Position numbers and translations under genes: made by a program. From assembly GCA_002399225.1 (NCBI GenBank), contig DHDF01000066.1, positions 8,027 through 18,101 of the forward strand: 10,075 nucleotides of DNA, given 5' to 3'. The notes below the pieces were generated by a model, which searched no databases, had not been told where the DNA came from, and saw nothing but the letters and a program-made list of their open reading frames with translations. This document shows, piece by piece, positions 1,292 to 9,718 of the stretch; position 1 is the first letter of the stretch, and each line of letters opens with the position of its first letter. This stretch comes from a bacterium UBA4883 (GTDB lineage: Bacteria; Bacillota; Clostridia; Oscillospirales; Acutalibacteraceae).

Positions 1292-1811
1292 ATGATTGAT
1301 ATTTCCCCTTCCCAAATTCAAAAAGCGGAGAACTTCCACGAAACTAGCCTATCTTGCTACAAAACCTCTTTCGAAGATCAAGAGTCCCTATGTCGCGGAC
1401 ACAGATTTCCCGAGCCCGGTGGAAGTGACGGAAGCGCTCCGCAAGCGTGTCGAGATGAATCATTACGGATACCCTTATATCGACTCTGCTTTTGAAAAAA
1501 GCATCAATTCTAAACTCATTCTGTATGCAAATCAAGCCGGATTGGCGTTCGGCTTATTACTGAATAAGCTGAATATTGTAGAATGCCACGCCGTTAGAAT
1601 GTCGGACTGCGGGTTAAAACTGTTTCAAAAAAGCGGAATTCGATTTGACTATGAAAAGCTGATCCCCTTGGTAAAATCGTCAAAGGATGAAAACAAGGTC
1701 TGTCCTATTGAAAAATTTTTATCAGAACATTCAAATCCGGAAGAGCAGTGGAAATTTTTAAAAGACCGCTTTCAGGAGGAACATGAGTTTCATGACTCTT
1801 GCAAACGATAG
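1292..1811 (+). pseudogene. Chimeric remnant: MalY/PatB-like N-terminus joined to DUF1893 C-terminus
   Basis: An ATG at 1292 with AGGAAAG 8 nt upstream opens a reading frame that soon loses recognisable sequence. The neighbouring frame, open from a TTG at 1296 to the stop at 1809-1811 (171 aa), carries two unrelated family pieces. Residues of about 32-66 (SPYVADTDFPSPVEVTEALR, then KRVEMNHYGYPYIDSAFEKSI) match the start of MalY/PatB-type PLP-dependent C-S lyases (consensus like WVADMDFPxPxxVxEALKxRVxHxxFGY). From about residue 70 on, the text (ANQAGLAFGLLLNKLNIVEC, KSGIRFDYEKLIPLV, CPIEKFLSEHSNPEE) matches the C-terminal two thirds of DUF1893. The PLP lysine domain and the DUF1893 N-terminus are both absent. 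A deletion joining two genes, plus a frameshift near the start, is the simplest reading. A translated fusion protein is possible but less likely. Confidence 0.6.
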
Positions 1812-2015: not shown

Positions 2016-2044
2016 TTGACTTTATGATGACAACGTTTTATGCT
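2016..2044 (+). promoter_or_regulatory. SigA-type promoter of cassette A
   Basis: TTGACT (2016-2021) and TATGCT (2039-2044) are separated by 17 nt. The matching stretch before cassette B has the same TTGACTTTA start and the same spacing, and both are followed by TAAAGTATT, so the promoter is conserved between the copies. Transcription should start near 2051 and enter the small ORF at 2081. Confidence 0.72.
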
Positions 2045-2080
2045 ATTAAAGTATTCTGAGTTAATAAAGGAGGCTTTCCA

Positions 2081-2200
2081 ATGCGCTGTGCGGAACTGAC
2101 CGGTTGTAACCGTATGCTTTCTGCCTGTGCGGAAGAAGGCTCCTCTTTTTATGCCTATTACTGGTTTTACTTTTACTTTTTTACAAGCAAAAGTTCATAG
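2081..2200 (+). CDS. 39-aa small ORF of cassette A (leader peptide or small membrane protein)
   Basis: The ATG follows a perfect AAGGAGG (2067-2073) at 7 nt. The ORF codes 39 residues: a Cys-containing first half (Cys3, Cys9, Cys16) and a very aromatic stretch, YAYYWFYFYFF, at residues 24-34, ending in TSKSS. It lies where the 41-aa ORF of cassette B lies, with the same start context (ATGCGC) and the same element at its end; its TAG overlaps the first bases of that element. Beyond Met-Arg the two peptides do not align, so this copy may be decayed or frameshifted, or only translation matters. I recognise no family. The aromatic run could sit in a membrane. It may be a leader peptide whose translation affects the hairpin downstream, or an independent small protein. 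Confidence 0.5.
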   Translation: MRCAELTGCNRMLSACAEEGSSFYAYYWFYFYFFTSKSS

Positions 2201-2223
2201 GCATACGCTCAAAAAACGAAATA
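2197..2223 (+). repeat. Conserved 27-nt element, copy A
   Basis: ATAGGCATACGCTCA, one variable base, then AAAACGAAATA. It is identical at 26 of 27 positions to copy B (5262-5288), while the sequence on either side differs strongly. Such conservation in non-coding DNA points to a functional site. AAAACGA (2213-2219) is complementary to TCGTTTT (2252-2258) inside the following terminator hairpin, so an alternative pairing can be drawn. Confidence 0.75.
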
Positions 2224-2243
2224 GCCTCAGCTATCTGCATGAA

Positions 2244-2285
2244 GTGGCGGCTCGTTTTAAGCGGGCCGCCACTTTTGTTTTTGGG
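2244..2285 (+). terminator. Terminator-like hairpin, cassette A
   Basis: GTGGCGGCTCG (2244-2254) pairs with CGGGCCGCCAC (2262-2272) over 11 bp with one T-G wobble. The loop is TTTTAAG, and TTTTGTTTTTGG follows. It stands between the small ORF and the amidohydrolase gene, so the operon can be expressed only by read-through or from an undetected later promoter. The B copy has the same hairpin. Confidence 0.8.
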
Positions 2286-2403
2286 GCCACCAGGGAAAGG
2301 GGGAACACGTTGCAGGGCCGGCCGCGCCGCCGTCAGAGCAGAGAAAACGCCGGAATCAGAGCCGGGGAGAGTCAAAAAATCAAAATAAAGGAGCGGATCT
2401 GTT

Positions 2404-3579
2404 TTGAATTACCTTGAACGTGCACAGGAACTAAAAGACACACTGCTGGAGGACCGCCAGACCATTCACCAGTTTGCCGAGACAGGATTTGATTTGCCGA
2501 AAACTTCGTCTTACGTTGCAAAAAAGCTGCGTGAATACGGCTGTCAGCCACAGCAGGTCGGCCGCTGCGGCGTTTCCTGCACCGTGGGCCACGGCGGAAA
2601 AACAATTCTCCTGCGGGCGGACATGGATGCTCTGCCGATGGCGGAAGAAAGCGGCCTGCCGTTTGCGGCAAAAAACGGGCACTGCCATTCCTGCGGCCAC
2701 GATATTCATACCGCCATGCTGCTCTGCGCGGCAAAAATGCTGAAGGAGCGGGAAAATGAACTGAAAGGAACCGTCAAGTTCATGTTTCAGCCTGCCGAAG
2801 AGCTTCTGAGCGGCGCGAAAGATATGATCGCAGCCGGAATTTTGGAAAATCCGACCGTTGACGCTGCGGTTGGCATGCATATTTTCTCCGGCCTTCCGTT
2901 CAGCCGCTCCGGTCATATCCTGTATCACTGCGGGCCGGTAATGAATTCCGGAGACACGGTGCGCGTGCGGATCACAGGCCTTGCCGCACACGGTTCCATG
3001 CCGTTTCAGGGGGTGGACGCAATCAATATCGCCGCACATCTCACGCTCGCTCTTCAAGAGATTATCTCCCGTGAAATCCCTGCCCAAAAGGAAGCCGTCG
3101 TTCTGGTTGGCACCATTTCGGGCGGCGCGTCGCCGAATACCGTGGCAGGCGAGGCGGAACTGGGCGTTACCCTGCGTGCGGAGAGCATGGAACTGCGCAA
3201 TTTCCTTTTAAAACGTGTCAAAGAGATTTCAGAGGCTACGGCGGCTGTCTACCGCGGCAGCGCCTCGGTCAATGTGGAAGTTTCCGTTCCGCCGCTTTAT
3301 AACGAACCCGAACTGACAAAAGAGATTGCCGGCTATGCCGCGAATCTTCTTCCGCAGGGGACGGTGGAGGAAATCCCGAAACTGAACGGCGGGGAAGACT
3401 TTACTTACGTTGCGCAAAAAGTGCCGGCCGCTTTCCTGATTCTCGGCGGAGGCTCCATCGACGAGGGCTACAAGTATTCACAGCATAACCCGAAAATTCG
3501 TTTCAACGAAACTGCGTTTCCTGCCGGAGCGGCGATGCTGGCACACTGTGCGGAGGCATGGCTTGAGCATAACCAATAA
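2404..3579 (+). CDS. M20D-family amidohydrolase (N-acyl-amino-acid / hippurate hydrolase type)
   Basis: Predicted cytoplasmic di-metal hydrolase of 391 aa, the usual length for the M20D (AmhX/hippurate hydrolase) group, which splits N-acyl amino acids or related amides. Visible motifs: RADMDALP (71-78), CHSCGHDIH (94-102) with ligands Cys97 and His99, PAEE (130-133) with the catalytic and ligand Glu pair, GMHI (157-160) with His159, AAHGSMP (194-200) of the dimerisation-domain His, NGGEDF (328-333) and QHNP (360-363) with ligand His361. All expected metal ligands are present, so it should be active. Translation begins at a TTG with AAGGAG (2388-2393) 10 nt before it; no better start is nearby. 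The permease gene follows after 67 nt, implying co-transcription. Its substrate is unknown; uptake or export of the acylated compound by the permease is a reasonable inference. Confidence 0.92.
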   Translation: MNYLERAQELKDTLLEDRQTIHQFAETGFDLPKTSSYVAKKLREYGCQPQQVGRCGVSCTVGHGGKTILLRADMDALPMAEESGLPFAAKNGHCHSCGHDIHTAMLLCAAKMLKERENELKGTVKFMFQPAEELLSGAKDMIAAGILENPTVDAAVGMHIFSGLPFSRSGHILYHCGPVMNSGDTVRVRITGLAAHGSMPFQGVDAINIAAHLTLALQEIISREIPAQKEAVVLVGTISGGASPNTVAGEAELGVTLRAESMELRNFLLKRVKEISEATAAVYRGSASVNVEVSVPPLYNEPELTKEIAGYAANLLPQGTVEEIPKLNGGEDFTYVAQKVPAAFLILGGGSIDEGYKYSQHNPKIRFNETAFPAGAAMLAHCAEAWLEHNQ

Positions 3580-3588
3580 AGGTATGCC

Positions 3589-3605
3589 GCGGGGCTAGGC
3601 CCCGC
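3589..3605 (+). other. Intergenic hairpin between amidohydrolase and permease
   Basis: GCGGGGC (3589-3595), loop TAG, GCCCCGC (3599-3605). The 7-bp GC-rich stem has no T run after it, so it is not a typical terminator. It may stabilise the upstream message or modulate the amidohydrolase:permease ratio. Confidence 0.5.
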
Positions 3606-3646
3606 AATGTTCCTCCGGACAATCAATTAGAAAGAGAGTGAAATGA

Positions 3647-4810
3647 ATGAACAGTCTGCTGGCGGTTTTCATCATTTTCCTGGTGTTCTTCCTGGGAGAT
3701 GCTGTCGCGACCAAAACAAAAGCCCTGGTTTCCATGCTGTTTTTCGGTGCAATCGTTTTTATGGTCGCGTTCTGGTGCGGCCTGCCCAAGACCATTTTTA
3801 AAGATTCCGGCCTGCTGGCCTTTGCGTCCATCACCATTGGAATGTTTCTCGCAAACATCGGTACGACCATCAACGTGCGTGACTTTGTCAGCGAATGGAA
3901 GACCGTTGTTGTCGTCCTGCTTTCCACATGCGCAATCGCGCTCAGCGTCTATTTTATCGGCAAAAACTTTATGGATCAGTATTATGCGCTTTCGGGCGCG
4001 CCCGTCCTCGCGGGCGGCATGGTGGCCTACCTGATCATGAAGGATGTCGCAAAGGCGCTGTCACGCCCTGACGTAGCCGTATTTGCCATGCTGGTTCTGA
4101 TCTTTCAAATGTTTGTCGGGCTGCCTATTGCAAGCACCCTGCTGAAAAAAGAAGCGCGCAGCGTTCAGAAAAGCTACCGGGCGGGTACGCTTCAGCTTCA
4201 GGAATCGATGCCGAAAGATGGAACGCCAAAACGCAGACTGATTCCGTCGCTTCCGTCAAAGTATGATACGCCGAACTTTGCCCTCTGCAAGCTGGCCCTG
4301 ATCGCCTATCTTTCCAGCGTTTTAGGGTCGCTGACCGGGGTTACGCAGCTCATCTTTGCACTGCTTTTCGGTGTGCTTGCCCGTCAAGTCGGTTTTCTGG
4401 AGGAAAATGCGCTGGTAAAATGCAACGGCTTTGCCTTTGTCCTGGCCGGCGCGGTCATTTCCGTGTGGGCCAGCCTTCCGGCGGCAACTCCTTCGATGGT
4501 CCTGTCTATGCTGTTCCCTCTGATTTTGGTCCTGGTCATCGGCGTCGTTGCCGGCTGTATCGTAGCCGTACTGGCGGGCCGGCTGATCCATTTCAGCTGG
4601 GAAATGTCCATTTGCATGGCGGTCACGGCCCTGTTTGGTTTTCCGGGAACTTACCAGATCCCCGTGGAGGTTGCGAGGGCTGTCGGTGAGACGCCGGAAG
4701 AGACCAAGGCGATTCAAGACGCGATTATGCCGAAAATGATTATCGCAGGTGTCGTTTCCGTTTCCATCGTATCCGGCCTTTTGGCCGGCATCATGGCAAA
4801 ATGGATTTGA
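3647..4810 (+). CDS. Polytopic membrane permease, cassette A paralogue (387 aa)
   Basis: Integral membrane protein with about 11-12 hydrophobic segments, split into two halves by a charged cytoplasmic-type loop at residues 168-208. Conserved-looking stretches are GAPVLAGGM (117-125) in the first half and FGFPGTYQIPVEV (330-342) in the second, both Gly/Pro-rich as in substrate or ion sites of inverted-repeat transporters. The two-half build and a Gly-rich re-entrant-like motif recall GltS-type symporters, but this is an impression of architecture, not a family assignment. The start at ATG 3647 has GAGAG about 8 nt upstream, and the paralogue has the same start; an overlapping ATG at 3643 is in another frame. 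Placed 67 nt after an M20D amidohydrolase, it probably transports that enzyme's substrate or product. The substrate is unknown. Confidence 0.82.
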   Translation: MNSLLAVFIIFLVFFLGDAVATKTKALVSMLFFGAIVFMVAFWCGLPKTIFKDSGLLAFASITIGMFLANIGTTINVRDFVSEWKTVVVVLLSTCAIALSVYFIGKNFMDQYYALSGAPVLAGGMVAYLIMKDVAKALSRPDVAVFAMLVLIFQMFVGLPIASTLLKKEARSVQKSYRAGTLQLQESMPKDGTPKRRLIPSLPSKYDTPNFALCKLALIAYLSSVLGSLTGVTQLIFALLFGVLARQVGFLEENALVKCNGFAFVLAGAVISVWASLPAATPSMVLSMLFPLILVLVIGVVAGCIVAVLAGRLIHFSWEMSICMAVTALFGFPGTYQIPVEVARAVGETPEETKAIQDAIMPKMIIAGVVSVSIVSGLLAGIMAKWI

Positions 4811-4925
4811 GCTTTTCCGCCTGACCCGGTTTTGGGACAGGCTCGACCGACTTTTTTCAAAACAACAGATTGATTTCCCCTGCTCTTAAGCGGGGCTGGC
4901 TGAAAAACATCAGGGAATTGCAGTC

Positions 4926-4948
4926 AGCTCTGTTTAAGGGCTTTTTTT
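4926..4948 (+). terminator. Terminator after cassette A
   Basis: AGCTCT (4926-4931) / AGGGCT (4937-4942), a 6-bp stem with one wobble and a GTTTA loop, is followed by seven T in all. It lies 115 nt after the permease stop and would end the cassette A message. The rest of 4811-5065 shows no gene. Confidence 0.6.
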
Positions 4949-5065
4949 AGTCTGACAGCAGTTTTTTACCCCCTTTTCAAAGCTCCAGTTTACGTTTCAT
5001 ACCATCTTTGGCATTGAGGACGAAAAACAGTTTAAAAATCCACAGATCTTTGATGATTTCAATGA

Positions 5066-5094
5066 TTGACTTTAGCAAAACATCAATTTATACT
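5066..5094 (+). promoter_or_regulatory. SigA-type promoter of cassette B
   Basis: TTGACT (5066-5071), 17-nt spacer, TATACT (5089-5094). It is the counterpart of the cassette A promoter, with the same TTGACTTTA start and a shared TAAAGTATT just downstream. The -10 is closer to consensus than in A. Confidence 0.77.
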
Positions 5095-5130
5095 AATAAA
5101 GTATTTATGATTTTGTAAGGGGGCTCTCAA

Positions 5131-5256
5131 ATGCGCAGCATGGAAGAAAAGCAGTTTAATGCCAAACTCTGCGTCCGCATCATTATTGAGGGCGTCATTA
5201 CCTATGCCCTGTTGCTGGTCCTACCGCTGGTAGTACTGCTGCTAAATACCGGATGA
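5131..5256 (+). CDS. 41-aa small membrane protein or leader peptide, cassette B
   Basis: ATG preceded by AAGGGGG at about 8 nt. The 41 residues comprise a charged N-terminus (MRSMEEKQFNAKLCVR) followed from residue 17 by a hydrophobic stretch that includes YALLLVLPLVVLLL (25-38) and ends NTG. It reads as a single-pass membrane peptide. It sits between a conserved promoter and the repeated 27-nt element, just as the 39-aa ORF does in cassette A. I do not recognise a family; the size and shape resemble small type I toxin or regulatory membrane peptides, but none of their signatures is present. A leader-peptide role before the hairpin at 5308 is equally possible. Confidence 0.6.
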   Translation: MRSMEEKQFNAKLCVRIIIEGVITYALLLVLPLVVLLLNTG

Positions 5257-5261
5257 AGTGA

Positions 5262-5288
5262 ATAGGCATACGCTCATAAAACGAAATA
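5262..5288 (+). repeat. Conserved 27-nt element, copy B
   Basis: ATAGGCATACGCTCA, T, AAAACGAAATA. It differs from copy A (2197-2223) at one position only. It begins 5 nt after the small ORF stop and ends 19 nt before the hairpin. AAAACGA (5278-5284) can pair with TCGTTTT (5316-5322) of the hairpin, as in copy A. Confidence 0.77.
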
Positions 5289-5307
5289 ACCCGTTGATCC
5301 ATATTAC

Positions 5308-5346
5308 ATGGCGGCTCGTTTTTAAGCGAGCCGCCATTTTGTTTTG
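5308..5346 (+). terminator. Terminator-like hairpin, cassette B
   Basis: ATGGCGGCTCG (5308-5318) pairs perfectly with CGAGCCGCCAT (5327-5337) over 11 bp. The loop is TTTTTAAG, and TTTGTTTTGG follows. The stem sequence is shared with cassette A. It lies about 230 nt before the permease start, so permease expression needs read-through or another promoter. Confidence 0.82.
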
Positions 5347-5573: not shown

Positions 5574-6737
5574 ATGAACAGTCTGTTGGCAGTCTTAATC
5601 ATATTTTTTGTGTTTTTCCTGGGGGACGTTGTTGCTACCAAAACAAAAGCCGTCGTTTCCATGTTGTTTTTCGGTGCGGTTGTCTTTATCGTCGCATTTT
5701 GGTGCGGCCTGCCGGGCACCATTTTTAAAGATTCCGGCCTGCTGGCCTTTTCGTCCATCACAATCGGAATGCTTCTTGCGCACATTGGCACAACCATCAA
5801 TGTACGTGATTTTATCAGCGAGTGGAAGACTGTTGTCATTGTTCTGATTTCCACATGCGCAATCGCGCTTGGCGTTTACTTTATCGGCCAGCATTTTATG
5901 GACCGCTACTATGCGCTTTCGGGCGCACCCGTCCTCGCCGGCGGCATGGTTGCTTTCCTTGTTATGAAAGAGGTTGCGGCAACGCTGTCGCGCCCGGACG
6001 TAACCGTATTTGCCATGCTGGTTCTGATCTTCCAGATGTTCGTCGGGATGCCCATTGCGAGCACTCTGCTGAAGAAAGAAGCGCGCAATGTGCAGAAAAG
6101 CTATCGGGACGGAACGCTTCGTCTTGAGATGCCGGAGCAGGAGAAGAAAGTGCAGAAGCACACCCTGATTCCGCCTCTTCCCGCAAAATACAACACGGCA
6201 AGTTTTACCCTCTGCAAGCTGGCGCTGATTGCCTATCTGGCCTATCTGCTGGGAAAATGGACGGGAATCACGCAGTTAATCTATGCGCTGCTGCTCGGCG
6301 TACTCGCACGTGAAATCGGTTTTCTGGAAGAAAACGCGCTGGTTAAGTGCAATGGTTTCTCTTTCGTTCTGGCCAGCACCATTGTAGCCGTCTGGTCAAG
6401 TTTGCCGTCCGCAACCCCTAAGATGTTGCTGTCCATGCTGCCACCGCTCATTCTGGTTATGGTCATCGGCGTTGTTTCAGGCGGTGTCGTAGCCGTGCTG
6501 GTGGGCCGGTTGATTCATTTCAGCTGGGAAATGTCCATCTGTATGGCGGTCACGGCTCTGTTTGGCTTCCCCGGGACCTATCAAATTCCTGTGGAGGTCG
6601 CAAAGGCTGTCGGTGAAACACCGGAGGAGACCGAAGCAATTCAGAACGAAATTATGCCGAAGATGATTATTGCGGGTGTTGTTTCCGTTTCCATCGTATC
6701 CGGTCTTCTGGCCGGACTTATGGCAAAGTGGATTTGA
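5574..6737 (+). CDS. Polytopic membrane permease, cassette B paralogue (387 aa)
   Basis: Paralogue of the permease at 3647, with the same length (387 aa) and, by eye, roughly four of five residues identical; no gaps are needed. Both GAPVLAGGM and FGFPGTYQIPVEV are unchanged, and about 11-12 membrane segments are expected. Differences cluster in the central loop at about residues 178-212, where this copy is more charged (MPEQEKKVQKHT). The start at 5574 has GGAAAGAGAG (5555-5564) before it; an in-frame TTG at 5553 would add seven residues but overlaps this ribosome site and is not matched in the paralogue. Unlike the first copy, no amidohydrolase precedes it. It may have a shifted substrate range or simply add dosage. 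The transported compound is unknown. Confidence 0.83.
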   Translation: MNSLLAVLIIFFVFFLGDVVATKTKAVVSMLFFGAVVFIVAFWCGLPGTIFKDSGLLAFSSITIGMLLAHIGTTINVRDFISEWKTVVIVLISTCAIALGVYFIGQHFMDRYYALSGAPVLAGGMVAFLVMKEVAATLSRPDVTVFAMLVLIFQMFVGMPIASTLLKKEARNVQKSYRDGTLRLEMPEQEKKVQKHTLIPPLPAKYNTASFTLCKLALIAYLAYLLGKWTGITQLIYALLLGVLAREIGFLEENALVKCNGFSFVLASTIVAVWSSLPSATPKMLLSMLPPLILVMVIGVVSGGVVAVLVGRLIHFSWEMSICMAVTALFGFPGTYQIPVEVAKAVGETPEETEAIQNEIMPKMIIAGVVSVSIVSGLLAGLMAKWI

Positions 6738-6913: not shown

Positions 6914-9066
6914 TTACTGCCTCACCTGCTTCATGGAGAGGGAGATGCGTTTCTTTTGGGGATCCACGGCCAGAACCATGACTTTTACAATATCTCCGAC
7001 GGACACCACTTGCGAGGGGTGACGGATGAATTTATTTGCCAGCTCCGAGATGTGTACCAGCCCGTCCTGATGGATGCCGATATCGACAAACGCCCCAAAA
7101 TCAATCACGTTGCGCACGGTGCCGGTAAGAATCATGCCGGGCCGAAGGTCTTTTAGATCCAGAACGTCTGTGCGCAGGATTGGAGCGGGAAGTTCATCAC
7201 GGGGATCCCGTCCGGGTTTTACCAGCTCATTCACAATATCTCTGAGGGTGGGGATGCCTGCTTCACATTTCTCCGCGGCCTGCTTTTCCCCATAAGCCTT
7301 TAACTGCGCGGGAAGCTCAGAAAGCTTCCCGTTTGCCACGTCGCCGAGTTGATACCCGCACAGCCGGAGCAGCTTTTCGGCCGCTTTGTAGCTTTCGGGA
7401 TGGACGCCCGTGTGATCCAGCACGGATTTGCTTTCAGGAACACGCAGAAACCCCGCGCACTGCTCGTAGGCCTTCGGCCCCAGCTTAGGGACTTTTAAAA
7501 GCTGTTTTCTCGAGGTGAACACGCCGTGTTCTTCGCGGTAGGCCACAATGTTTTTCGCAGTCGTGGCGTTCAGACCGGAGACCCGCTGAAGAAGCGAGGC
7601 TGAAGCGGTGTTAAGATCAATGCCGACGGCGTTGACGCAGTCCTCCACCACACTGGCAAGCGATTCGTCAAGCCGTTTCTGCGGCATATCATGCTGATAC
7701 TGTCCCACGCCGATGGCCTTGGGGTCGATCTTAACAAGCTCGGCCAGCGGGTCCTGCATTCTGCGGGCGATCGAGATGGCGGAGCGCAAATTTACGTCGT
7801 ATTGAGGAAACTCCTCCGCCGCAAGCTTGGAAGCGGAATATACCGACGCCCCCGCTTCATTGACGATCATGTAGCGGACGCCGGGCATTTTTGCAATCAG
7901 TTCGCACGTCATCTGTTCCGTTTCGCGGGAAGCGGTTCCGTTGCCAATGGCGATATGCTCGACGCTGTGCTTCTGGATGAGTCCTGTCAAAGCTGCAATC
8001 GCTTCGTTTTTCTGGCGTTCCCCATAGGTCGGGTACACCACGGCGGTATCCAGCACTTTGCCTGTGCCGTCCACCACGGCAACCTTGCATCCGTTGCGGT
8101 AGCCTGGGTCAAGCCCCATGGTGACGCGGCCCTTGACCGGCGGCTGCATCAAAAGAGGCTTTAGGTTGAGCGCAAAGTTATGAATGGCGCCCTCCGAGGC
8201 GGCATCAGTGAGCCGGCCGCGCATTTCCCTCTCCATGGAGGGAAAGAGCAGGCGGTCATAACCGTCCTCCGCCGCTCTGCGGACAAAATCCGCCGCTTTT
8301 GATCCGGCCTTTCCGACCTTATTCCACATCAGGCCCAGTGCCAAGTCCCTGTCGAGCTCCACCGTAACTTTGAGGTAGCCCTCTTTTTCGCCGCGGTTTA
8401 TCGCCAGGATCTGATACCCTTGCAGCCGTGAAATCGGCTGGCTGAACTTATAGTAAAGACTGTAGGTTGAATCCTCATCCTTTGCCGCCGTTGAGCGCAA
8501 TGTGCCTTTTTTCAGGATCAGTTCCCGCAGAAGCCGTCGGATGTCCGCACTGTCCGAAACGATCTCCGCTATTATGTCCGACGCGCCGGCAAGCACGTCG
8601 TCTGCGCTCGCGACGCCCTTTTCCGCATCGATATATTCTGCGGCAAGTTTTCTGATATCCGGCAGATCCCCGGACTGTCCGAAGAGCGTTTTCGCCACGG
8701 CTCAAGGCCCTTTTCTTTTGCAATCGTTGCGCGGGTGCGGCGTTTCTGTTTGTACGGGCGGTAAATGTCCTCTACCTCTGCCAGCGTTTGCGCGGCGTCT
8801 ATCTCCGACGACAGCGCCTCCGTCAGTTTGCCCTGCGCAGTAATGGAATTTTTAACTTCTTCGCGGCGGGCTGCAAGGCTGCGAAGATAAGAAAGCCGGT
8901 CCATCAGCTTACGGAGGACCGTGTCGTCCATCGCTCCGTGCATTTCCTTGCGGTAACGGGCGATGAACGGAATGGTATTCCCTCCGTCGACGAGGTCTAT
9001 GACGTTTTTTACATGCTCTTCGCTTTGGCCCAGTTCTCCTGCAAGTATCTTTACAATGTTCTCCAT
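6914..9066 (-). pseudogene. tex: Tex (S1 RNA-binding transcription accessory protein), frameshifted
   Basis: Tex is a conserved cytoplasmic nucleic-acid-binding protein tied to transcription. Translation starts at ATG 9066 with AAGGAG 5 nt upstream, and the first frame holds the Tex N-terminus (MENIVKILAGEL..., GGNTIPFIARYRKE, RPYKQKRRTRATIAKEKGLE) to residue 123. Right after GLEP (near 8698) the frame changes: it continues as WRKRSSDSP and runs on out of family to a stop at 8572, while the next frame resumes perfectly (AKTLFGQSGDLPDIRKLAAE). One missing base explains this; repaired, the protein has 717 aa, normal for Tex. The remaining domains are intact: YqgF/RNase H-like (from about 313, VTMGLDPGYRNG), helix-hairpin-helix (about 480-545), and C-terminal S1 (about 641-715, GTVRNVIDFGAFVDIG). 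The downstream frame could start at GTG 8698, but no ribosome site is evident. A sequencing error is as likely as a true mutation. It lies 10 nt after the acetyltransferase stop. Confidence 0.85.
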
Positions 9067-9076
9067 AGGGTCTCCT

Positions 9077-9718
9077 TCATAACGGCTGAAATTCCGGTTT
9101 CCCGGTTTGCTCATCACCTGCCGGCGGGTTAAAATTCACCTCTCCGTAAGCGCAGACGTCCGCGAATGTCTTGACTCGGGACTGACTTTCCTCATGGATT
9201 CCTATCTGCTTTTCCATCCATACCATGTGATACCAGCGATTAAATTTGTATCCGCAGTTATGAAACTGTCCGACCATCTGAAAGCCCATCTTATGATGAA
9301 AAGCTACACTGTCTTTTGTCAGATACCTGTCCTCTTCTTCCGGATAGGCGATGCACGCATTGAGGTTAAGAATTCCTTGTGCTTTCAGCGCTGTTTCCAG
9401 CGCATCGTACAACTTGCGGCCGATTCCCAGCCGCCTCTGATTTTTCTTCACGTAAATAGTCGTTTCGACTGACCAGTCATAAGCCGCTCTTTCGTGAAAC
9501 GCGCCGGCATAGGTATAGCCAAGCGCTTCTCCATTCAATTCCGCAACCAAATACGGGTACCTTTGCAAAATATGCTGAATACGTTTTTTAAACTCGTCTT
9601 CGGAAGGAACTTGATATTCGAAAGTAACGGCGGTGGTTTCAACGTACGGGGCATAGATTGACAAAAGCGCCCGTGCGTCTTCTGCTTTTGCGATTCGAAT
9701 TTTTATTTTTTTATCCAT
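9077..9718 (-). CDS. GNAT N-acetyltransferase, phosphinothricin acetyltransferase-like
   Basis: Cytoplasmic acetyl-CoA-dependent N-acetyltransferase (213 aa) of the PAT/MddA-like group, which acetylates amino-acid analogues such as methionine sulfoximine or phosphinothricin. The group's pattern is clear: YAPYVETTAVTFEYQVPS (22-39), WSVETTIYV (82-90), the acetyl-CoA loop QRRLGIGRKLY (94-104), and the C-terminal HHKMGFQMVGQFHNCGYKF (141-159) with RWYHMVWMEK (161-170). A tail of about 40 residues after that is longer than usual and not recognised. The start at 9718 has AGAAGGAAA about 8 nt upstream; an in-frame start at 9784 would add 22 residues without a comparable site. It is the first gene of a tight two-gene unit with tex, whose AAGGAG follows its TGA directly. 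The physiological substrate is unproven. Confidence 0.88.
   Translation of the reverse strand: MDKKIKIRIAKAEDARALLSIYAPYVETTAVTFEYQVPSEDEFKKRIQHILQRYPYLVAELNGEALGYTYAGAFHERAAYDWSVETTIYVKKNQRRLGIGRKLYDALETALKAQGILNLNACIAYPEEEDRYLTKDSVAFHHKMGFQMVGQFHNCGYKFNRWYHMVWMEKQIGIHEESQSRVKTFADVCAYGEVNFNPPAGDEQTGKPEFQPL

Follow-up and report, generated by a model that had tools for sequence, protein, structure and literature searches.

What regulates two neighbouring permease genes that are each preceded by a copy of the same compact leader? The two leaders (2016-2285 and 5066-5346) are paralogous and lie in a 10,075-nt stretch of UBA4883 (Acutalibacteraceae; GCA_002399225.1, contig DHDF01000066.1, positions 8,027-18,101 of the forward strand), called the window below, in which all features discussed are on the forward strand. 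In leader 1 the promoter sequence (TTGACT-17-TATGCT, 2016-2044) is followed by a Shine-Dalgarno sequence recognized by eye (AAAGGAGG, 2066-2073), a 39-codon ORF starting ATGCGC (MRCAELTGCNRMLSACAEEGSSFYAYYWFYFYFFTSKSS, 2081-2200), the first copy of a conserved 27-nt element that overlaps the stop codon of the ORF (2197-2223), and an intrinsic terminator (2241-2285) composed of a hairpin of 16 pairs (2241-2275) and a T-rich tail. Leader 2 consists of the promoter TTGACT-17-TATACT (5066-5094), a Shine-Dalgarno sequence, again recognized by eye (AAGGGGG, 5117-5123), a 41-codon ORF also starting ATGCGC (MRSMEEKQFNAKLCVRIIIEGVITYALLLVLPLVVLLLNTG, 5131-5256), the second copy of the element (5262-5288) and a terminator (5308-5345) with a 13-pair hairpin (5308-5337) and T-rich tail. 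Promoter, ribosome site, small ORF, element and hairpin are thus present at the positions given by the first-pass annotation, which had been made from the DNA letters. Judged by sequence, both copies have the part order of an attenuator (promoter, Shine-Dalgarno sequence, ORF, terminator), and hairpins 1 and 2 ranked at the top of a terminator scan, although the 6 sites that it returned in total are close to a shuffle mean of 5.4. Leader 1 precedes an M20 amidohydrolase gene (TIGR01891, 2404-3579) and permease A (3647-4810), which has a CitS-like predicted fold and belongs to no Pfam or NCBIfam family, and leader 2 precedes permease B (5574-6737), 80% identical to permease A. The description of the locus as two permease operons therefore fits the second unit, which is a permease alone, but not the first, in which the amidohydrolase accompanies the permease.

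The two copies of the element are identical at 26 of 27 nt (96%). Identity between the leaders is 89% in the hairpin and tail and 76% in the promoter, and it is 48% in the small ORF, 47% in the spacer, 52% upstream of the promoter and 49% downstream of the hairpin. The permease genes share 78% of their nucleotides and 109 of 180 four-fold sites (61%). The element and the hairpin are therefore more constrained than their surroundings, which bears out the earlier claim that both were conserved while the ORFs diverged. The further claim that the conserved parts are the RNA features was half right: the diverged ORFs hold signal of their own in the form of differing regulatory codon runs.

ORF 1 contains the run FYAYYWFYFYFF (2147-2182), aromatic at 11 of 12 positions, and ORF 2 contains LLLVLPLVVLLL (5209-5244), leucine or valine at 11 of 12. 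When 1788 distinct small ORFs bearing Shine-Dalgarno sequences in 657 kb were scanned for such runs, each ranked highest in its class, the runners-up having 7/12 (aromatic) and 10/12 (Leu/Val). A regulatory-codon run beyond chance, as expected of a ribosome-mediated attenuator, is therefore present in both leaders. Hence the ORFs have indeed diverged, but not by mere decay, given their extreme amino-acid runs and the one-base-shifted nucleotide conservation described below. A protein collection holds a 39-residue entry identical to leader peptide 1 (P0122, one sequence on 8 contigs) and an entry (P0121, three member sequences) that differs from leader peptide 2 at residue 2 only, and this recurrence makes an assembly slip less likely.

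An RNAalifold consensus of both leaders paired ORF nucleotides UAUG(C)CC.. with ..GGCAUA of the element. In leader 1 the ORF segment (segment 1, UAUGCCUAU, 2150-2158) pairs with 2197-2205 of the element (segment 2), and in leader 2 UAUGCC (5203-5208), next to which lies an extra C, pairs with GGCAUA at 5265-5270. The predicted 1:2 hairpin has an energy of -12.2 kcal/mol in leader 1 (4 of 200 shuffles were as stable) and -20.8 kcal/mol in leader 2 (9 of 200), which gives modest support in both leaders to a hairpin joining the run region of the ORF to a downstream segment. A clean thermodynamic switch was absent from the equilibrium model, in which the terminator was favoured by 15-22 kcal/mol at every ribosome position. 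With the 3' arm removed from the model, element:terminator pairing was already 0.94/0.92 in the ribosome-free RNAs; with a ribosome at the stop codon it dropped to 0.41 in leader 1 and was 0.95 in leader 2. Element-terminator pairing as in leader 1 was reached by 10/2000 dinucleotide and 16/1000 mononucleotide shuffles, the corresponding values for leader 2 being 647/2000 and 105/1000. The modelling is thus suggestive of a ribosome-dependent antiterminator in leader 1, but not in leader 2. The 1:2 and 2:3 pairings overlap hardly at all and so do not bear out mutual exclusion of the two.

We propose, with a probability of roughly 0.8, that the leaders are two paralogous ribosome-mediated transcription attenuators, one sensing the charging of aromatic tRNAs and the other that of leucine and valine tRNAs. 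The proposal draws on features of the sequence, namely the parts, the codon runs, the common 1:2 pairing, the one-base register of the runs and the aromatic T-boxes of homologous operons (both below), from which we infer stalling, antitermination by the element and the substrates. RNA polymerase would start at the promoter, and a ribosome would translate the leader ORF behind it. With abundant charged tRNA for the run, the ribosome would clear the run and move on to the stop codon, which lies at the 27-nt element or a little upstream of it, whereupon the terminator hairpin would form and transcription end. Scarcity of aromatic (leader 1) or leucyl- or valyl-tRNA (leader 2) would stall the ribosome in the run and open the UAUGCC:GGCAUA hairpin that encloses it, and the freed element would interfere with the terminator to allow read-through, from leader 1 into the genes for the amidohydrolase and permease A and from leader 2 into permease B. 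The system may import N-acyl or peptide-like derivatives of amino acids and recover the amino acids from them, and for permeases that lack a Pfam or NCBIfam family the leaders offer a substrate hypothesis, aromatic versus Leu/Val derivatives. The first-pass annotation had suggested a regulatory leader outside the known families. Regulation is upheld and no Rfam family matched the window at gathering score (T-box RF00230, riboswitches and curated leaders included), but the kind of regulation, leader-peptide attenuation, is a known one.

Homologous permeases provide a parallel for the aromatic class. A strict recount of distinct permease ORFs, which left out truncated copies as well as permeases A and B, gave 91 homologues (a looser count gave 99). 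An accepted T-box faces the permease or M20-permease operon in four of these and is absent from the other 87. The specifiers are UUC (Phe, L006), UAC (Tyr, L007) and UGG (Trp, L055 and L134), so that all four T-boxes read aromatic codons; by eye, the position of the specifier codon is consistent with those of the T-boxes before pheS (L009, UUC) and ilvD (L093, AUC). A T-box pattern match at L092 was discarded by eye, as the CCGCG continuation is missing. As the regulatory amino acid, the aromatic class agrees with the four T-boxes of homologous operons, whereas Leu/Val has no independent parallel. Among the homologous permease loci screened for an ORF with a terminator there was no second example of the leader, and no other locus covered by the run scan had a comparable peptide. 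The nearest permease relatives by protein are P0003-P0008 (59-65% identity). A search of genome contigs with a single protein gave no matches, and one with an alignment gave 22 loci.

The two runs themselves are related by a shift of one base. Following the common TAT GCC they match at 11 of 15 positions when shifted by one base versus 3 of 15 in frame, the next best of the five displayed registers giving 7 of 15, and in the shifted register six of the first seven codons, including all of the first five, specify the same residue. The extra C of leader 2 can bulge from the conserved RNA stem. We think it probable that duplication was followed by insertion of one base, the stem bulge, which switched attenuator specificity from aromatic to leucine/valine; with the extra base after TAT GCC, an aromatic run would have become a Leu/Val run and the sequence of the RNA stem would have been retained. 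The direction is an interpretation, leader 2 being most likely derived from an aromatic leader. All Phe, Tyr and Trp codons start with U, and reading an aromatic run from one base earlier can therefore yield no residues other than Leu, Val and Phe; the 25 aromatic codon pairs read in this way give 16 Leu, 5 Val and 4 Phe. The reverse conversion was seen in 19 of 200,000 simulated Leu/Val runs having the codon usage of the three window genes, and a Leu/Val to aromatic step by frame shift is very unlikely. If the scheme is correct, the genetic code offers aromatic leader peptides a built-in one-step path to branched-chain sensing, and the duplicated pair suggests that a regulator need not acquire a new RNA to alter its specificity, as a shift of frame leaves the RNA stem in place.

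Three other explanations bear on parts of this picture. The one-base register could be a chance likeness of pyrimidine-rich runs, the two specificities having arisen independently by run replacement, an alternative that concerns origin only and not attenuation. It is the less likely account, although the good match spans just about 15 nt (11/18 and 13/24 when lengthened) and 62 of 5000 dinucleotide shuffles reached the match in the 18-nt window; for 15 nt only 9 of 5000 shuffles over 7 registers did so, the match adjoins the common TAT GCC, its first five codons give the same residues and some of the nucleotides in this stretch pair with the element in each leader. The remaining two explanations dispense with attenuation. 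If the ORFs encode small membrane peptides with a function of their own, as transporter partners or in the manner of type I toxins, and are followed by a conserved RNA tail, then the terminator would just end a short transcript. The hydrophobic runs at the ends of both peptides agree with this, as does ORF 2, in which about 17 consecutive residues, by eye mostly hydrophobic, could span a membrane, but the run of ORF 1 has just 12 residues, 11 of them aromatic, the peptides by eye have little in common beyond MR, EG and YA, and four homologous operons are under T-boxes for the same aromatic class, all of which makes this explanation improbable.

Hardly more probable is an RNA leader that binds a protein or ligand (a riboswitch or the target of an antiterminator protein), the element being the binding site and the ORFs incidental or serving only in translation coupling. 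The contrast between the element (96%) and the spacer (47%) would suit a binding site, and in leader 2 the element is poorly explained by base pairing to the terminator. However, no Rfam family was found at gathering score, and two nearly identical elements would be expected to respond to one signal, so that the difference between the codon runs would have no explanation. Ribosome-mediated attenuation is thus the reading that we prefer.

Leader-peptide attenuators are well known from the amino-acid operons of Enterobacteria (trp, phe, his, ilv and leu). Gram-positive examples are Rli60 of Listeria and ilv-leu of Staphylococcus (PMC5864092, PMC5794164). The window leaders resemble these systems in having a short ORF with a regulatory codon run between a promoter and an intrinsic terminator, but the known attenuators precede amino-acid genes whereas here a CitS-like permease and an M20 amidohydrolase follow. 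Also unlike those systems, two adjacent paralogous leaders differ in specificity and have a 27-nt element in common, and the switch pairing is only a candidate. The histidine leader peptides on the hisZ and hisS paralogues of bacilli are likewise Gram-positive leader peptides where relatives have a T-box, and duplicated genes there have different attenuators; both peptides are histidine peptides, whereas the present copies differ in specificity with runs one base apart (Naville and Gautheret 2010, PMC2965389). Writing in 2010, these authors knew of no demonstrated leader-peptide attenuation beyond Proteobacteria and Actinobacteria, with the exception of ermC. In Gram-positives, T-boxes have been described more fully than has attenuation by leader peptides. 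T-box leaders (RF00230) serve the four homologous permease operons with aromatic specifiers, whereas the window lacks a T-box and sensing would be by the codon run; one amino-acid class would thus be read in homologous operons by T-boxes in some bacteria and by leader peptides in another. The LEU element of Actinobacteria combines a leucine-rich small ORF with a conserved RNA pairing, as here, but it forms a pseudoknot, the base stem of which is made up of the leucine codons and the ribosome site of leuA (PMC1262725). It has one specificity rather than two, and unlike it the window leaders have a terminator and runs distant from the ribosome site of the gene.

Sequence searches for the element returned nothing convincing beyond the pair. 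In its own genome (a bin that is 56% complete) there are two sites, both within the pair. A covariance model run on 198 genomes, own included, gave five weak matches in other genomes under strict filters; the one read fully (L060) corresponds to the tail of an ordinary gene with its terminator, and none of the five loci yielded a comparable ORF in the run scan. Viral contigs held no exact match to the element and plasmids no match. The covariance search that had been proposed to find wider occurrences in Clostridia thus turned up only this pair in 198 genomes, and the element does not appear to be a mobile or widespread RNA motif. The lack of further occurrences, which the first-pass annotation had said would count against its proposal, holds for the element as a sequence as far as searched, but leaves the attenuation mechanism unaffected. 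The known leader copies are two, in a single genome bin.

The leader promoter, including the TAAAG start region, appears to be of an ordinary kind; genome sites with 2-3 mismatches precede tRNA-Arg, tRNA-Ser and alaS. A regulatory role for the box TAAAGTATT is not favoured, sites with two mismatches preceding alaS and a helicase-like gene. By eye, no further attenuators were seen behind similar promoters in the own genome at the 11 readable loci of 13, the other two being one masked and one ending too soon. The wider promoter pattern also precedes tRNA-Arg, tRNA-Ser and further genes, with 15 matches versus 4 for the reversed control pattern.

Every part of the duplicated leader named in the first-pass annotation is present in both leader 1 (2016-2285) and leader 2 (5066-5346). 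The 27-nt element (2197-2223 and 5262-5288) is 96% identical between the copies and the hairpin with its tail 89%, whereas the small ORF, the spacer and the stretch 3' of the hairpin stand at 48%, 47% and 49% and the permease four-fold sites at 61%; between the copies, these three regions look like unconstrained DNA. The parts follow the order promoter, Shine-Dalgarno sequence, ORF with its codon run, 1:2 hairpin (UAUGCC of the ORF with GGCAUA of the element), element and terminator, and in both leaders this order is the layout of a leader-peptide attenuator.

The run of ORF 1 (MRCAELTGCNRMLSACAEEGSSFYAYYWFYFYFFTSKSS) is aromatic and that of ORF 2 (MRSMEEKQFNAKLCVRIIIEGVITYALLLVLPLVVLLLNTG) is Leu/Val. 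Runs were scanned in 136 sequences (135 fetched loci plus the window; 657,300 bases including overlaps), in ORFs of 15-60 codons having a ribosome-site-like motif. Among the 1788 distinct ORFs, ORF 1 was the only one with 11 aromatic residues in 12 (runner-up 7) and ORF 2 the only one with 11 Leu, Ile or Val residues in 12 (runner-up 10, in two ORFs with TTG starts). An assembly slip is a less likely origin of the aromatic frame, because entries of the protein collection carry the leader peptides: P0122 that of ORF 1 (39 aa, 100%; one sequence on eight contigs, the window's own perhaps included) and P0121 that of ORF 2 (41 aa, R2C; three member sequences, one contig).

In both copies AAAACGA of the element complements TCGTTTT of the terminator apex, and CGCT complements the adjacent AGCG. 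This pairing was reached by 10 of 2000 dinucleotide shuffles of leader 1, and in leader 2 it was no better than shuffles (647/2000). When the terminator 3' arm was removed from the model and no ribosome was placed, element:terminator pairing was 0.94 in leader 1 and 0.92 in leader 2; with a ribosome on the stop codon it dropped to 0.41 in leader 1 and did not drop in leader 2 (0.95). Given the full terminator, its advantage of 15-22 kcal/mol survived every ribosome position. As the modelling kept the terminator favoured throughout, we ground the attenuator reading in anatomy, codon runs and relatives, and the proposed switch stays putative.

The in-frame motifs common to the two ORFs are GAR GGC ... 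TAT GCC. Past TAT GCC the match is 3/15 in frame versus 11/15 when one leader 2 base is skipped, the second best of the five registers shown giving 7/15. Nine of 5000 dinucleotide shuffles reached 11/15 over seven registers, and 62 of 5000 reached the observed match when it was widened to 18 nt. Shifted one base back, the leader 1 run reads LLLVLLLLF, which has the residue of leader 2 (LLLVLPL) at six of the first seven codons (one identical, five synonymous). RNAalifold of the two leaders paired the register stretch with the element and left a gap at the extra C, which is a bulge in the leader 2 centroid fold; hence, an RNA constraint could explain how nucleotides were kept while the reading frame shifted. 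Such a one-base shift would be the leader-peptide analogue of the single specifier-codon change that alters T-box specificity, as recounted in a passage of Wels et al. (PMC2494555). Among the literature matches listed, none described these leaders, leader peptides on the permease family or an attenuator specificity switched by a one-base frame change.

Leader 1 precedes an M20 amidohydrolase gene (2404-3579) and permease A (3647-4810), and leader 2 precedes permease B (5574-6737). The two permeases share 80% identity and had no family match in Pfam or NCBIfam. An elevator-type transporter is likely, since a structure prediction for permease A, with a mean pLDDT of 76, best matched the sodium/citrate symporter CitS (Foldseek E 1.2e-05, TM about 0.5). 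Many homologous permeases, though not all, adjoin M20 genes. Within the same family, homologues are rare, with two others in 398 genomes (own genome counted).

We surveyed 91 distinct homologous permeases (window pair excluded) with at least 300 nt upstream of each and at least 1200 for 89; all were motif-searched, and for 59 the loci were also scanned with Rfam. A T-box was oriented toward the permease in four of the 91; a fifth motif match, L092, was discarded on inspection by eye. The T-boxes of L006 (Megasphaera cerevisiae, 2514-2722) and L007 (Veillonellaceae, 2526-2740) lie upstream of the M20 gene and have specifiers UUC (Phe) and UAC (Tyr), and those of L055 (1200-1431) and L134 (1184-1421) lie immediately 5' of the permease, with M20 downstream, and have UGG (Trp). 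Specifiers were read at identical model positions, as the triplet following GAAN of the specifier loop, an offset that by eye also fits T-boxes before pheS (L009, UUC) and ilvD (L093, AUC), both genes identified via NCBIfam. The L055 T-box scored 77 bits (E 4e-17), below the Rfam gathering score of 93, and the L134 alignment has a one-base gap preceding the codon. These relatives are not uniformly close to the window genes: identity to permease A is 56% (L006), 54% (L007) and 28% (L055), and identity to the window M20 protein is 26-28% for L006 and L007 and 52% for L055. As the four specifiers are Phe, Tyr, Trp and Trp, leader 1 is of the same aromatic class as the four relatives using another sensor, an agreement covering the aromatic class only. 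Such T-boxes before homologous permease/M20 operons suggest a substrate hypothesis for the transporter family. Two more permeases of this family lie in tandem in the Veillonellaceae genome (L100, G704:C2:1433500-1440500), a locus with no Rfam match.

Read one base back, an aromatic run can give Leu, Val or Phe only (16, 5 and 4 of the 25 codon pairs). Conversely, 19 of 200,000 Leu/Val runs simulated with the codon usage of three window genes turned all-aromatic, and leader 2 in the reverse-shift frame reads CCWSYRW, then stop. Together with the T-boxes of the relatives and with leader 1 being the copy that precedes a complete operon, this asymmetry makes aromatic the likelier ancestral specificity. 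Leader 2 must have gained a stop codon as well and is longer by further bases; therefore, more than one change separates the leaders.

The search elsewhere that the first-pass annotation proposed returned little: in the own genome (a bin 56% complete, in 156 contigs) the element occurred, at up to 3 mismatches, in this pair alone, and the covariance model R1 gave across 198 genomes just five weak matches beside the pair (33-40 bits versus 111-118). In the run scan, the loci of these five had no ORF comparable to the leader ORFs. The own genome may also use T-boxes, because a leader 5' of alaS (L140, 1501-1830, contig C136) looks T-box-like by eye; its promoter closely resembles that of leader 2. 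Elsewhere in the window, the Tex gene (6914-9117, minus strand) is divided between two ORFs that overlap and differ in frame, one holding Tex_N and the other the remainder, which is a frameshift or an assembly error. An ORF at 1296-1811 (plus strand) has a DUF1893 (TM1506) domain, and its upstream part weakly matches the beginning of PatB C-S lyase, which looks like a remnant fused to the domain.
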